From an uncultured Luminiphilus sp. (GTDB lineage: Bacteria > Pseudomonadota > Gammaproteobacteria > Pseudomonadales > Halieaceae), in NCBI GenBank assembly GCA_938091995.1, contig CALKNZ010000046.1, forward strand, positions 1-33,894: 33,894 nt of DNA, given 5' to 3'. Positions 21,339-33,611 of this stretch are shown piece by piece. The notes beneath the pieces are model-generated. The model made no database searches. It worked only from the letters and a program-made list of their open reading frames with translations, and was not told the DNA's origin. Every line of letters starts with the position of its first letter. Position 1 is the first letter of the stretch. The position numbers and the translations under genes are program-made.

Positions 21339-21965
21339 TCAGGGCCGCCCCTGATGAGAAGCGTGCGATGTGCTTTCAATAATCAGTGCGATACCCCGGC
21401 CCATAGGATCAGACCAGCGGGAGACTAAGCCGTCCCATGGCACTTTTAAAATGCCATGGGACGGATCATAAATAGTCGCCAAACCTAAAGCGTCCCTTGG
21501 TTGTAAAACTATAAAATGCCCTCCAACTTTCCCCGGCATTCTCAAGATCGTTACTCGATCGATATTCTCAAGCCACGATCGCGACGCAGAAAGTCCTCGG
21601 GAGGGGATGCCAAAATACGCTAATAACCATTGTAAATCTGATAGCGAGTAACCCTCGCCCGCAGGTCTGCCTTCAGTCGCAATATAGCGATGGCTCAATA
21701 AACTGGCTAACTCCTGCAGCTCCGGATCAAGCCCCCTGTCGGCGAGAATAAAACCAACCGCTCTAAGTCCACAGTCGTTACGCAGAGCGACGGGGTCTAA
21801 AACAAAAGCTGGACTGAAGGGTAAGCTTGAGATTACAGAGCCCGAATTGAACTCGCCCTGAACCGGCAAGGTCAAGAGTAGGCCTAACCCGGCAATTAAC
21901 CGGGCTAGGATTGAAGAACACCGTAGACGACTCGAATAGCTAAACACAGCGCCGCAAGATCGCAT
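21339..21965 (-). CDS. exported C39-type cysteine peptidase
   Basis: A 208-aa protein with an N-terminal signal or anchor (basic residues, then ARLIAGLGLLLTLPVQG, cleavage about residue 37) and a papain-like C39 fold. Catalytic residues expected for the family are visible: Cys65 in RNDCGLRAVG, His150 in GGHFIVLQP, Asp167 in IYDPSHG. The Gln that usually sits six residues before the Cys is Val59 here. C39 domains normally process Gly-Gly leader peptides inside ABC exporters; stand-alone exported versions such as FapD of the Pseudomonas functional-amyloid operon are also known. The preceding gene, 10 bp upstream, encodes a small exported protein with a Gly-Gly motif, a plausible substrate. A striking 13-bp perfect hairpin overlies the codons just after the catalytic Asp. 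Confidence 0.8.
   Translation of the reverse strand: MRSCGAVFSYSSRLRCSSILARLIAGLGLLLTLPVQGEFNSGSVISSLPFSPAFVLDPVALRNDCGLRAVGFILADRGLDPELQELASLLSHRYIATEGRPAGEGYSLSDLQWLLAYFGIPSRGLSASRSWLENIDRVTILRMPGKVGGHFIVLQPRDALGLATIYDPSHGILKVPWDGLVSRWSDPMGRGIALIIESTSHASHQGRP
21430..21464. repeat. 13-bp perfect inverted repeat inside the C39 peptidase gene
   Basis: The arms CCGTCCCATGGCA and TGCCATGGGACGG match perfectly around the 9-nt loop CTTTTAAAA. Each arm contains its own palindrome CCATGG. In the minus-strand mRNA this is a strong stem-loop covering the codons for PSHGILKVPWDG, directly after the putative catalytic Asp. No U-tract follows on either strand. An arm of this length with a short loop is unlikely by chance in 34 kb. 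Its role (RNA processing, translational pause, protein-binding site) is unknown. Confidence 0.85.
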
Positions 21966-21975
21966 GACTCGCTAG

Positions 21976-22272
21976 CTACGGAGCCTCAGTGTAAAAGTGC
22001 GGACTCGTCGGTGCGTAATAAGGCACGTATACCCCCCAATAAAAGCCCATTAAGGCCAAATCTACGCTGGCTATACCTAAAGCGAGGGCCATTGGCCCCA
22101 AGCCCCCTCGGGTGCTTTCCATAACAATCGGGTCGAGCTCTTGAATTGGCATATCGTAAACAAGTGTTGAACGGCTATCCCGGTGCGAATCAGCGTGCAT
22201 CGGTTCGGCCATAGCAGCCGTTGCACCCACTAGCAGTAATGCTAGTCCTAGTGACTCAAATGTAGTTTTCAT
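21976..22272 (-). CDS. small exported protein with Gly-Gly leader-like motif
   Basis: A 98-aa protein I do not recognise. It has a Sec signal peptide (MKTTFESLGLALLLVGATAA, cleavage near MA/EP). A polar spacer follows, then ELDPIVMESTRGGLGPMALA with Gly56-Gly57, then a hydrophobic segment and a tail rich in aromatic residues (MGFYWGVYVPYYAP). Leu at -12 and Met at -7 from the cleavage point fit bacteriocin-type double-glycine leaders; Thr at -4 does not. Two ATGs are possible; GGGAG touches the first (22278) but lies 6 nt before the second (22272), so I chose the second. The C39 peptidase gene follows after 10 bp. A maturation-substrate role is inferred from that pairing. Confidence 0.72.
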   Translation of the reverse strand: MKTTFESLGLALLLVGATAAMAEPMHADSHRDSRSTLVYDMPIQELDPIVMESTRGGLGPMALALGIASVDLALMGFYWGVYVPYYAPTSPHFYTEAP

Positions 22273-22294
22273 AGACATCTCCCTGTCTTAGTAA

Positions 22295-22433: not shown

Positions 22434-23399
22434 TTAGGACGATACTGATGATGACCCTTGCAGTACGCTCTTAAATACCGTGCCATACCCAGGAGACACA
22501 GGGGTGTGGTCAAAGTAACCTCGAGCCCGCAACAACCGACGAAGATCTGCAAGTCGATAACACGGCACTGCCGCCATAAAATGATGCTCTAGATGAAAAT
22601 TGACGGAATGCGGCGCCATCAAAAAACGCTGCCAATAGGGTGCTTCTACCGTGCGCGTATTTTCTCTGGGATCAAGATCATAAAGATTGGGCACCGCCCC
22701 ATGCTCCGCAATTTGACGCAGTCGAATCACCAGCATGTAAGTAGTCATAAAGGTGGCAAACCACAGTAACCATGTCCAGCCCCATCCCAGTGCAAATAGA
22801 GCGAGAAACAAGAGCCCCTGCACCAATATTTGCTTGAATAAAAGTGCTCGACCCTGACCTTGAGCTCGGTTCATATTCCCAGCACCGCCCCTAACCAGGC
22901 TGATTAACAACTTAAAACCTGTTTGCCCGGTTAAATCGCGAAAGACTTTTCGACCGAAGCTTTTGTTCTTAATTGGATAGGCCGCATAATTAACGAGATC
23001 TGGATCATCGCGAGTGCCCGCTTTTCGATGATGCTCCAAATGCCCCGCCGCATAGCTGGGCAGATCGCCCAAGGTTGGCAATGCACAAAACCACTGACCT
23101 ACAACACGATTCAACGCCGGCGTGGCAAACAAAGAGCCATGACCTGCTTCATGCATGAGAACAGCAAGGCCCAACTGGCGACCCGGTAAAAATACTAGGA
23201 CAATTATTGCAGTCAGTGGCCCGGGAAAAAGCGCAGCCAGCCCTAGCAGTATAAAAACTAAACCCCATGTTTGAGCCACCAGCCAAAGTCCAACCAAGTC
23301 GCTTGATTGCATTAATGCTAACCGCTCTTCAGCAGAAAGCAGCTCATTGGGCTTAGTGGGTGCTACAGAACCACTTTTATGGGCGACATTCATCGACAT
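22434..23399 (-). CDS. membrane fatty-acid desaturase (type 1)
   Basis: A 321-aa integral-membrane di-iron enzyme of the fatty-acid desaturase / hydroxylase superfamily. The three histidine boxes are visible: HEAGHGS, HLEHHRK and HLEHHFM; a further His lies in RQIAEHGAVPN. Hydrophobic spans flank the first box (LVAQTWGLVFILLGLAALFP and TAIIVLVFLPG) and the middle (LVQGLLFLALFALGWGWTWL). AAAGG lies 7 nt before the ATG. The substrate is unclear: lipid acyl chains are usual, but carotenoid or other hydroxylases share the boxes. It lies upstream of the Gly-Gly protein and C39 peptidase on the same strand. A 21-bp perfect palindrome lies about 156 bp upstream of its start. Confidence 0.9.
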   Translation of the reverse strand: MSMNVAHKSGSVAPTKPNELLSAEERLALMQSSDLVGLWLVAQTWGLVFILLGLAALFPGPLTAIIVLVFLPGRQLGLAVLMHEAGHGSLFATPALNRVVGQWFCALPTLGDLPSYAAGHLEHHRKAGTRDDPDLVNYAAYPIKNKSFGRKVFRDLTGQTGFKLLISLVRGGAGNMNRAQGQGRALLFKQILVQGLLFLALFALGWGWTWLLWFATFMTTYMLVIRLRQIAEHGAVPNLYDLDPRENTRTVEAPYWQRFLMAPHSVNFHLEHHFMAAVPCYRLADLRRLLRARGYFDHTPVSPGYGTVFKSVLQGSSSVSS

Positions 23400-23830: not shown

Positions 23831-24517
23831 ATGCGTCAATTCGCCATAAGCCTTTCCTGTAGCGCCTTAATTGCACTAACGGCAGGGTGTGCGTCTACAG
23901 AAGATCAGGCCATAGAAGCCTTGAACGACACTGGACAAGTGTCTCGTAACTCAAACTACAAAGACATCACCCAATATCCGGGTAATGTCACCTGCGGCAA
24001 ATACCTCGCTCAAGATTATCAGGGCTTTCCCATTTACAAGGATTTCGTCGTCTTAGATACCGTAGCCAACCTCAGGCCATTAGCTCTAGACGTTAAAATT
24101 TACTGCAGCGAGGATCCAGCAGCGGCGCTGGACGCGGCTTTTAACATTAATTATCAAGTTCAAAAGCTTCAGATAGATAGCATTCTCGAAGATTTCCGTA
24201 CACTAGCAGAGCCGCTTGCAGCTTATTTAAAGAGCAATCGCACCTACCCCTGGACCGAGCAGGGACTCCAAGCTCTGGTCGAACGCACAACAAAGGGTAA
24301 CGCTCCCTTAAATTTTCCAGAGGACGGTTACATCAGCGCAATACCCACCGACCCTTGGGGTAAAAGTTATGATTACGTCTGTGAGCCCTTCGCCGGAATT
24401 CTTGTCCCCTACAAACTTCAGTCCTTCGGCGCTGATGGGGTCGCGGGTGGCACGGAAGCAAATGCAGATATCAAGCACAGCTACCTGCCCTACTTTGACC
24501 ATATAAACGACCTGTAG
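23831..24517 (+). CDS. lipoprotein with GspG-like pseudopilin C-terminal domain
   Basis: A 228-aa lipoprotein: the lipobox LTAGC places the acylated Cys at residue 20. After an unassigned segment (about 25-115, with Cys55 and Cys92) comes a domain matching the globular part of type II secretion major pseudopilins. It has a helix (SILEDFRTLAEPLAAYLKSN), TYPWTEQGLQALVERTTKG (138-156), IPTDPWGKSYDYVC (171-184) and LQSFGADGVAGGTEANADI (196-214). The hydrophobic pilin helix and prepilin cleavage site are absent; lipidation would anchor it instead. GAGGA precedes the ATG. No other secretion genes are nearby, so any link to the T2SS is inference. The 3' end is 24 bp from the convergent transporter gene. 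Confidence 0.85.
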   Translation: MRQFAISLSCSALIALTAGCASTEDQAIEALNDTGQVSRNSNYKDITQYPGNVTCGKYLAQDYQGFPIYKDFVVLDTVANLRPLALDVKIYCSEDPAAALDAAFNINYQVQKLQIDSILEDFRTLAEPLAAYLKSNRTYPWTEQGLQALVERTTKGNAPLNFPEDGYISAIPTDPWGKSYDYVCEPFAGILVPYKLQSFGADGVAGGTEANADIKHSYLPYFDHINDL

Positions 24518-31471: not shown

Positions 31472-31500
31472 TTGACGCGGCTCGTCGGCGCGAGTAGTCT
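31472..31500 (+). promoter_or_regulatory. putative btuB promoter
   Basis: TTGACG at 31472-31477 and TAGTCT at 31495-31500 are separated by 17 bp. The -35 matches five of six consensus bases, the -10 only three. Transcription would start near 31507, just where the riboswitch aptamer begins, which supports the assignment. Confidence 0.4.
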
Positions 31501-31504
31501 GCGC

Positions 31505-31640
31505 GGCGTTAGGTGCCTACCGGTCATAGCGGTCTGGGTAGGTTAAAAGGGAAACTGGTGCTCGGTGTCAAACCGCAAAACCAGTGCTGCCCCCGCAACG
31601 GTAGGGAACTTTGTTCCGAGCCCGATACCTGCCTGACGTA
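31505..31640 (+). ncRNA. cobalamin riboswitch aptamer
   Basis: A B12-sensing leader upstream of btuB. Conserved elements appear in order: TTAGGTGCC, TTAAAAGGGAAACTGGTG, the box GCTGCCCCCGCAACGGTAGG, and GAGCCCGATACCTGCCT. The outer stem closes with CGT.AGGT at 31505-31512 and ACCT...ACG at 31627-31638. Cobalamin binding in the family lowers expression of the downstream uptake or synthesis genes. The expression platform lies after it, with a hairpin hiding the ribosome site (31720-31747) and a possible competing pairing. Exact ends are approximate. Confidence 0.93.
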
Positions 31641-31719
31641 ACGTAAACCACAGAGCGGAGGGCTCTGCAGGGTGCGACTCCCCAATTGGCTGGAGCCCAC
31701 ACCTGTGCTGTTTGTGACA

Positions 31720-31747
31720 GCGCCTCCGCCCTAAACAGGAGCTGCGC
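31720..31747 (+). promoter_or_regulatory. Shine-Dalgarno-sequestering hairpin of the btuB leader
   Basis: GCGC+CTCC (31720-31727) pairs with GGAG (31738-31741) and GCGC (31744-31747) around a 10-nt loop with a CT bulge. The 3' arm contains the AGGAG ribosome site 7 nt before the btuB ATG, so folding would block translation. This is the likely output switch of the riboswitch. Confidence 0.7.
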
Positions 31748-31748
31748 C

Positions 31749-33611
31749 ATGTCTCGCACAACACTGCACCGACCCATGATTCTATCTCTGCTTACGGGCG
31801 CACCACTGTTAGCGATGGGTGCCGAGGTAACAGATGGAGAGGCGCTGGAAGAAACCGTTGTCGTCGCGTCCCGCGTGCCCACCCCCCTAAATCGAATCGG
31901 CGTGTCGGTATCGATTACCGACCGTGAGACCCTAGAGATCTTAGGCTATAGCGACGTCGCAGACTTTCTTGATCTGCAGCCCGGCATTTCGGTGACCCGA
32001 GATGGCGGCCCCGGAAAATCGGCCGCTGTGCGCATTCGTGGCGAGGAAGGATTCAGAACACGAGTTGTCCTAGACGGCATTGATATTGCTGACCCCTCTT
32101 CACCGCAAATCAGCCCACGAATTGAACACCTTTTATCTGAGGGACTGCAGCGAATCGAAGTCCTCAGAGGGCCTCAAGGACTCGCTTATGGCGCCGATGC
32201 CGGCGGTGTCATTGCCATAACTACCCGTCAACCGGAACAGGGGCTCGCTGCGAGTTTCACCTTAGAAGGCGGTCAAAATGGCTATTCCGAATTAGGCGGA
32301 TTTGTCGCCGGGGGTACTGAAAAATTTCGCGGCGCCCTGTCAATCACCGATTTAAGCACCGATGGCTTCAACGCCAGAACCTCTGACAATTCGGAGTCAG
32401 ACGACGACGGGTACAGCAACACTACGATTCATGGGACGGCCACATTAGCGCTCACTGAAGCACTCACCCTTACCGGAAGTGTGCACGATATTACTGGGGA
32501 TAATGATTACGACGGCTGCTTCGACACCATGACTTTTGCTCAGATTAATGCCTGCACCGATACTTTCGACCAATCCGCCGTTCGTATCTCAGCAAGATTT
32601 CAGAATACCCTCATCGATTCATCGCTAAGCTACGAAAAATCTGAGCTCGAAAGAGCGTTTTTCAGCGATTCACTTGCTTCATTTGCCACTGAGGGTGCGC
32701 AGGAGGAAATTTCTTGGATTGGTTCATTCTCGCAACTTTCGGGGCAACGCGTTACCCTTGGGCTGGATGCCGCCGAGCAATCCCTGAACGACGGTGGCGA
32801 TGACCGCAGTCGAGACAATTTAGGCATTTGGGGCGAGTATGACTTTGACTTTTTGGCCGGGGCGCTCACTGTGGGCGCCAGATTGGATGACAATGATGAT
32901 TTTGGAAAACATACTTCCTGGCGAGTCAGCTTACAGCAACAGCTTGCCGGAACCGATTACCCACTGATCGTCAGGGGTGCTGTTGGCACCGGTTTCCGTG
33001 CACCTAGTCTGTATGAAATTGCTTACAATGCTGGGCCATTCAGCTATGCCCCGGCAGCCACTACAGCACTCTCTGAAGAACAAAGCCAAGGATGGGAGAT
33101 AGGTTTGAGCTGGGGCCAACCCAACCAGCGACTGGAAGTGACCTGGTTTGACCAAGAAATAGACAATGAAATCTACTTCGACCTCGCCAGTTATTCAGGC
33201 TACCTGCAGGGTACGGGCACCACGTCGTCACGTGGCTTAGAATTTGCTGGTGAAACCACTTTTCTTTCAAACTGGCGCCTTATGGCAAATCTCACTTGGA
33301 ACGAGACGGAATCTAATGATGGTCAGCAACGGCCCTATCGTCCCGAATGGACCGGGGCGACCAGCTTACTCTGGCAAGACCGTGCGATAACCGCCGCTTT
33401 GACAGCGCGATTTACATGGGACTCGGTCGATACTGTAGGAGCGTCTATGGCCGATACAGAACGCCTTGACGCCAGCATAGCCGTCAGTGTTACGCAATCC
33501 CTACGCCTGACCGCGCGAATCGAAAACATGACCGATAGCCAAGATCCACAGATCCGGGATTACAATCAAATTCCTAGGGCCGCCTACCTTGGCGTTCGCT
33601 ATAGCATCTAA
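31749..33611 (+). CDS. btuB: TonB-dependent vitamin B12 receptor BtuB
   Basis: Outer-membrane receptor (620 aa) that imports cobalamin with TonB energy. It has a Sec signal (MSRTTLHRPMILSLLTGAPL, cleavage after AMGA), a TonB box ETVVVAS (35-41), a plug domain (LDLQPGISVTRDGG, VRIRGEEGFRTRVVLDGI, RIEVLRGPQGLAYGADAGGV), and a 22-strand-type barrel to the final RAAYLGVRYSI. FRAPSLYEI and LEVTWFDQEIDNEIYFD are typical BtuB blocks. I chose the ATG at 31749 with AGGAG 7 nt upstream; an in-frame extension to 31686 lies in the leader. The riboswitch upstream confirms a cobalamin role. cobO follows after 11 bp. Confidence 0.96.
   Translation: MSRTTLHRPMILSLLTGAPLLAMGAEVTDGEALEETVVVASRVPTPLNRIGVSVSITDRETLEILGYSDVADFLDLQPGISVTRDGGPGKSAAVRIRGEEGFRTRVVLDGIDIADPSSPQISPRIEHLLSEGLQRIEVLRGPQGLAYGADAGGVIAITTRQPEQGLAASFTLEGGQNGYSELGGFVAGGTEKFRGALSITDLSTDGFNARTSDNSESDDDGYSNTTIHGTATLALTEALTLTGSVHDITGDNDYDGCFDTMTFAQINACTDTFDQSAVRISARFQNTLIDSSLSYEKSELERAFFSDSLASFATEGAQEEISWIGSFSQLSGQRVTLGLDAAEQSLNDGGDDRSRDNLGIWGEYDFDFLAGALTVGARLDDNDDFGKHTSWRVSLQQQLAGTDYPLIVRGAVGTGFRAPSLYEIAYNAGPFSYAPAATTALSEEQSQGWEIGLSWGQPNQRLEVTWFDQEIDNEIYFDLASYSGYLQGTGTTSSRGLEFAGETTFLSNWRLMANLTWNETESNDGQQRPYRPEWTGATSLLWQDRAITAALTARFTWDSVDTVGASMADTERLDASIAVSVTQSLRLTARIENMTDSQDPQIRDYNQIPRAAYLGVRYSI

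Follow-up and report, generated by a model that had tools for sequence, protein, structure and literature searches.

A stand-alone C39 peptidase and a small leader-bearing protein in Luminiphilus: a probable reduced relative of the Fap and Fil systems

The window analysed here, a stretch of 33,894 nucleotides that forms one entire contig of an uncultured Luminiphilus sp. genome (81% complete), encodes a small, apparently exported protein and, next to it, a stand-alone C39-type cysteine peptidase. In our best reading this pair is a pared-down representative of the exported C39 peptidases of which FapD and FilB are the type cases. With a probability of roughly 0.7, it would operate as a reduced Fap/Fil-type system, in which a precursor exported by Sec is cleaved by the exported C39 peptidase immediately ahead of the precursor's hydrophobic tail. 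We favour an envelope maturation pair because the linkage between the two genes is near-absolute, both proteins appear export-like by hydropathy, and the leader of the small protein is under strong constraint. The first-pass annotation of this DNA had likewise proposed a periplasmic maturation pair; that proposal survives as the best reading, but the Gly-Gly motif on which it was built does not.

The gene pair and its linkage across Halieaceae

The small protein, which has homologues throughout the loci described below, is encoded on the minus strand at 21,976..22,278 by a frame of 100 amino acids from the first ATG, or 98 from a second Met at 22,272, and is proposed as a leader-bearing precursor. 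Ten bases separate it from the next frame on the same strand (21,339..21,965), which encodes the C39 peptidase, a protein of 208 amino acids with a signal-like start. Both frames, their spacing and the leader-like motif in the small protein are thus as first annotated. The export signals that had been assigned to the two proteins are plausible, in that each has a hydrophobic N-terminal stretch as judged from hydropathy alone. In agreement with the earlier observation that no ABC transporter accompanies the pair, a Pfam scan found none among the 13 other proteins of the window, the flanking genes on both sides included.

A fatty-acid desaturase gene lies upstream of the pair (22,434-23,399, minus strand), with a T2SS-G-domain gene nearby (23,831-24,517, plus strand), and both are neighbours of the pair in several close relatives too. 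Further along the window, a cobalamin riboswitch (31,494-31,650, plus strand; Rfam, 76.5 bits) sits directly 5' of a TonB-dependent receptor gene (31,686-33,611). The sole other C39 match in the genome lies on a different contig (G000:C109:19395-20888; L001, L175), at the N-terminus of an ABC transporter which runs into the contig end and in which the catalytic Cys seems, by eye, to be absent.

Homologues of the small protein were found in 61 of 140 Halieaceae genomes by single-sequence search and in 62 by profile search, spread over 10 of 28 genera. The linkage and motif counts that follow cover the 61 loci found first, and leave the 62nd match (G004) outside; they include L067 and L068, which are divergent and have long extra C-termini. 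Of the 61 loci, 59 have a co-oriented C39 gene downstream, whose frame starts at most about 0.5 kb past the end of the small-protein frame, and the other two loci end at contig edges. The gene pairing is therefore real and the linkage near-absolute, and the check for co-occurrence in related genomes that the first-pass annotation had called for bears out its pairing of the two genes. An order-wide draw of 390 genomes, with at most 12 candidates scored per genome, gave 8 matches to the small protein; since all 8 fall within Halieaceae, the protein looks specific to this family.

A leader with one invariant glycine

In its 98-residue form, the small protein begins with a signal-like hydrophobic segment (residues 1-22; 22,207..22,272, minus strand), recognised by hydropathy and modelled at low confidence as a helix at residues 3-20. 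Farther in lies the leader-type motif ELDPIVMESTRGG (residues 45-57; 22,102..22,140, minus strand), with a predicted cut after Gly57, and behind it the hydrophobic tail (residues 58-98; 21,979..22,101, minus strand), which is the predicted mature product. The same low-confidence model places a short helix at residues 48-54, corresponding to positions -10 to -4 of the leader, and a longer one at residues 59-86 of the tail, where mean predicted pLDDT is 86-87 over residues 61-80.

Constraint on the leader and the tail is beyond chance. In the window and four close relatives, pN/pS was 0.10 for the leader and 0.11 for the tail, whereas the signal reached 0.37 and the linker 0.48; these ratios are only rough because synonymous sites are far diverged (pS 0.5-0.7). 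Most invariant residues lie in the tail, among them D71, L74, G80, Y82 and P84, which do not vary in the 29 rows of alignment A1. This tail could instead lodge in the inner membrane as a stop, a possibility that weighs against our best reading.

Gly-Gly had been taken as the key motif of the small protein, and this claim fails because homologues that lack it keep the peptidase neighbour. The first Gly (-2) is invariant in all 61 aligned homologues, and the residue after it (-1) is R in 21, G in 13, E in 10, Q in 7, K in 6 and A in 4. One of R, E, Q, K and A therefore takes the place of the second Gly in 48 of the 61 homologues, and in 46 of the 59 whose locus shows a C39 gene, and we dropped GG as the defining motif. 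Conservation of the Gly-Gly and its flanks, which had been suggested as a check, thus proved partial: the first Gly and the leader positions are kept and the second Gly is free.

As read from the alignment, the conserved element is a double-glycine-type leader of roughly the form L(S/D)xxE(L/M)xxxRG-x, belonging to the LSxxELxxxxG type and having one invariant Gly. Among the 48 distinct leaders, position -12 is hydrophobic in 45 and position -7 in 47, and position -8 is E, D or Q in 32. Position -4 is hydrophobic in only 24, being otherwise mostly T or S, which counts against our best reading. The leader in the window is itself a partial match to the textbook consensus, with Leu at -12 and Met at -7 but Val at -8 and Thr at -4; near-textbook leaders occur in some relatives, such as LSGAELEDATGR in L044. 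For the leader bound by LahT, a two-turn helix from -11 to -4 has been described, with residues -12, -7 and -4 sitting in a groove (PMC6363468), and the consensus leader of ComA is given as LSXXELXXIXGG (PMC6181422). The -12, -7 and -8 pattern of the family falls on these groove-binding or consensus positions. Known C39 substrates have GG, GA or GS at the cut, whereas most relatives here have R, E, Q or K at -1, and this difference also counts against our best reading.

A C39 peptidase with an intact triad

The downstream gene had been annotated as a C39 peptidase with an intact Cys-His-Asp set, and the protein proves to be one on Pfam score, modelled fold and conservation. It matches Peptidase_C39 (PF03412) at 29.6 bits against a cut-off of 22, and its structural model, with block-mean pLDDT of 88-97 over residues 61-200, has PCAT1, ComA and the LahT double-glycine protease among its top structural matches. 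The triad columns are invariant: the catalytic Cys65 (21,771..21,773) is Cys in 59 of 59 family C39s, and His150 (21,516..21,518) and Asp167 (21,465..21,467; all minus strand) are each conserved in 58 of 59, the remaining one (L045) being cut by the contig end. A PDB sequence search returned no match. A single-protein scan of contigs with the C39 found no relative either, although the genome search did recover relatives.

The oxyanion-hole Gln expected six positions ahead of the Cys is replaced by Val59 (21,789..21,791, minus strand). This Gln is present in 51 of the 59 family C39s and is missing in exactly 8 genomes, which are the window's clade. Its absence from this clade counts against our best reading, given that each of the 53 exported C39s that we scored from outside Halieaceae has it. 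Loss of the Gln is by itself no argument for inactivity, because the Q26A substitution in CvaB is reported to have only a minimal effect (PMC3335142). In pairwise comparison of the window and the same four close relatives, the C39 gene has a pN/pS of 0.33-0.52.

The same leader type beside other exported C39 peptidases

Across the class, the FapD model matched in 72 of 369 genomes, with no match above the model cut-off; 58 of the matches lay in open frames shorter than 400 amino acids, and 54 of these, in 53 stretches, made up our class-wide set. A leader matrix of 13 positions was built from the 48 distinct family leaders, taken from DNA, and used to scan open reading frames with a hydrophobic start at a shuffle p < 0.01. 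It found leaders in 25 of 70 adjacent same-strand frames (25 of 44 loci), compared with 6 of 62 distant frames (3 of 33 loci). A smaller matrix, from 17 of the 29 A1 rows, gave 27 of 70 adjacent frames (26 of 44 loci) against 5 of 62 distant ones (2 of 33 loci). The distant frames above the threshold also resemble leader proteins. At 19 of the 44 exported-C39 loci, no adjacent frame reached the leader threshold, which counts against our best reading.

The 12 best FapD-like loci (L100-L111) had a leader at p < 0.01 in the protein at the FapE position in 10 cases, matches that speak to leader type and not to FapE homology. The FapE-position proteins of L106 (p 0.06) and L112 missed the threshold, and L107 is without an adjacent candidate. 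At L101, a FapE-like protein carries LSDDEMGDMRGR directly followed by Y, beside FapD-like and FapF-like genes; the three neighbours match the NCBIfam models of FapD (282 bits), FapE (96.5) and FapF (439), although none of these scores reaches the strict cut-off. In an Aeromonas caviae record, LADGELAHLRGR, again followed by Y, is the best-scoring site of the protein after the FapD-like gene, by score without the shuffle test. Other leader matches are proteins of a different kind, with LTxxEMxxLRGG followed by F. In the literature surveyed on such leaders and on FilB, none of the titles and abstract openings describes a leader in the partners of exported C39s.

Genome G556 (L147-L152) has seven exported-C39 genes, each with an adjoining match to the barrel profile and an upstream protein. 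Most of these upstream proteins have one common signal sequence and leader and then differ, in the manner of a modular leader with diversified cores.

Barrels, 2-TM genes and the ancestry of the pair

A gene for an exported beta-barrel-like protein occurs in 21 of the 140 family genomes, and 19 of them have it no more than about 0.3 kb 5' of the small-protein gene, as read by eye from coordinates. Outside Luminiphilus, a FapF-like barrel is found just upstream in 18 of the 21 genomes that have the small protein. The 57 Luminiphilus genomes, just 17 of which reach 90% completeness, include one with a match to the barrel profile; in the genus, G112 alone belongs to the 19 genomes with the barrel close upstream, and other genes occupy the upstream position at the locus. 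The profile search likewise gave no match for a FapF-type barrel in the window's own genome, which is 81% complete. The first-pass annotation, which saw in FapD a precedent and no fap genes, missed the FapF-like barrel upstream in many relatives.

By hhalign, the barrel matched FapF at 98.2% probability (E 6e-14), in an alignment that includes four class-wide barrels, and the C39 matched FapD at 99.2% (E 7e-20). A five-barrel profile matched frames in 18 of the 53 class-wide loci at E 1e-3 in the first round, 9 of them at 1e-10. Iteration raised this to 49 of 53 loci, 42 of them with the barrel within 3 kb on the same strand, with second-round E-values that are partly circular because the profile was trained on 19 first-round frames; the independent support for the barrel comes from the first round and from hhalign.

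A 2-TM gene lies between the substrate and the C39 in 48 of 61 loci (E < 0.01, from a profile seeded with 13 of the 61), with 3 further weak matches (0.06-2.2) and 10 loci without a match. Neither this gene nor the oxyanion Gln occurs in the 8-genome clade of the window. Substrates terminate in CxxC in 16 of the 19 barrel-bearing genomes, against 0 of the 42 others, and FapC of several Pseudomonas is reported to end likewise (PMC3684753). A Gly run often precedes the CxxC ends (L163-L165, L060, L064 and other barrel-bearing loci).

In a midpoint-rooted tree of the C39s, in which the long-branch row L032 is placed unsurely, the 13 GG genomes are set apart by a single branch (100/99), and nested among them is the clade of 8 genomes to which the window belongs (100/99). 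We infer that the barrel and the 2-TM gene have been lost, as opposed to gained later elsewhere.

In another genus of the family, at locus L172 (G056:C1:180500-185200), a homologous barrel is followed by a small TM protein and then by an exported protein of 218 amino acids that differs from the small protein described here, with a leader of the same type (LSPAEMAATEGD) and another tail. Inspection by eye of the open reading frames in that stretch revealed no C39.

Proposed mechanism and alternative explanations

In the mechanism we propose, the small protein would be exported by Sec and its signal peptide then removed. The C39 peptidase, itself exported, would bind the internal leader through Leu at -12 and Met at -7 and cut at the end of the leader, probably after Gly-Gly57 but possibly directly after the invariant Gly, freeing or exposing the hydrophobic 41-residue tail. 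The periplasm is a plausible compartment for this step because FapD is reported to require its Cys and to act there (PMC5557850); loss of FapD Cys38 blocks secretion in the E. coli assay of the Pseudomonas sp. UK4 fap operon. In relatives outside the genus, where the operon as a rule also includes genes for a FapF-like barrel and a 2-TM protein and most substrates terminate in CxxC, the product would probably be handed to or through the outer membrane. In Luminiphilus, with a barrel seen in only 1 of 57 genomes, the product would most likely remain in the envelope.

Three other explanations deserve consideration. The C39 may have ceased to cut, and may now bind and escort the leader, as C39-like domains do in certain type I exporters. 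Absence of the oxyanion Gln from the 8 genomes of the window's clade, a -1 residue that is unconstrained across the family, and a constraint on the C39 gene (pN/pS 0.33-0.52) weaker than that on the leader all suit such a role. A pure chaperone, however, need not keep the triad, which is retained as Cys in 59 of 59 and as His and Asp in all 58 complete C39s, and CvaB stayed active as Q26A (PMC3335142), so that we regard escort as unlikely. The combination of a double-glycine-type leader, a 41-residue hydrophobic tail and, in most relatives, a small 2-TM gene between substrate and C39 also recalls a microcin-like arrangement, with an antibacterial mature peptide and the neighbouring 2-TM protein conferring immunity. 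The seven C39 genes of G556, beside proteins that mostly have a common signal and leader and a differing remainder, would fit the same pattern. This explanation is distinctly improbable: the tail is strongly conserved and undiversified (pN/pS 0.11; invariant D, L, G, Y and P), the window's clade has kept the peptide without the 2-TM gene, and no ABC exporter was found at the locus.

The conserved Gly and the tail might, finally, be merely the start of a transmembrane helix, with the C39 acting on another substrate and the adjacency arising from shared regulation. The Gly does lie directly before the model helix at 59-86, and the tail holds most of the invariant residues, but the leader upstream is as constrained as the tail (0.10 versus 0.11). 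The same leader moreover recurs with unlike continuations beside other exported C39s, as in the FapE-like proteins, and with another tail at L172; of the three explanations we consider this one the least probable. We rank the reduced exported-C39 system above the escort, microcin-like and membrane-helix explanations, each of which carries lower weight.

A wider proposal, to which we give even odds, joins these observations. Exported C39s, comprising FapD, probably FilB and many unnamed proteins, would share one modular leader, L(S/T/D)xxE(L/M)xxxxG-x, inside Sec-exported precursors and tolerate almost any residue at -1. FapE would then be a direct substrate of FapD, cut between RG(R/K) and (Y/F), and in Luminiphilus this machinery would be reduced to the enzyme and one hydrophobic envelope peptide, with no outer-membrane channel. 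A 2017 study already suspected FapE, citing missing N-terminal peptides and GG/GA motifs, and reports that a canonical C39 sequence was not found in Fap proteins (PMC5557850). The conserved leader yields a specific predicted cleavage site in FapE-like proteins, which makes a standing question about the export of functional amyloids directly testable. It hints at the substrate of the peptidase in this better-known amyloid-fibre export machinery. More generally, it would carry double-glycine-type leaders from cytoplasmic ABC export into the periplasm, with the -1 position relaxed, and would point to a possible shrinkage of a Fap/Fil-type system to two genes in a marine lineage.

Comparison with known systems

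Double-glycine microcins and bacteriocins have the leader at the N-terminus of the precursor and a C39 ABC exporter at the locus. Here the leader lies at residues 45-57, behind a signal-like segment, and the C39 stands alone, the scan of the flanking genes having given no ABC family. The pair shares with the C39 domains of PCAT1, ComA and LahT the fold, the triad and the leader pattern at -12, -7 and partly at -8 and -4. It differs from them in that the C39 is unfused to a transporter, the precursor is probably exported by Sec first, and the -1 position is free across the family.

The Fil system (FilB/FilC) is best known from Acinetobacter and is a putative pilus system. In NCBIfam, FilB bears the name of a C39 family peptidase. 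Its model is matched at 27-63 bits by five relatives of the window C39, and the FilC model at 61 bits by one FapF-like barrel, in a comparison that covered peptidase and barrel. The window C39 had no match to the FilB model at E up to 1, and the scores of its relatives are far below the cut-off of 475. With FapD the window C39 scored 12.1 bits against a cut-off of 330, and five relatives 41.5-67.4 bits; a close assignment to either FapD or FilB was dropped on these model scores.

The window's pair is unlike Fap (FapD/FapE/FapF) in that the peptidase is partnered by a small protein that contains a hydrophobic helix and has no apparent amyloid repeats, and in that the genome gave no barrel match. 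What the two have in common is a stand-alone exported C39 and a leader-bearing exported partner, together with a FapF-like barrel in relatives, and the CxxC substrate ends in 16 of the 19 barrel-bearing relatives recall the FapC CxxC of some Pseudomonas. Since a gene for a FapF-like barrel directly precedes the pair in many relatives, the relation to Fap is evolutionary, and not only an analogy.
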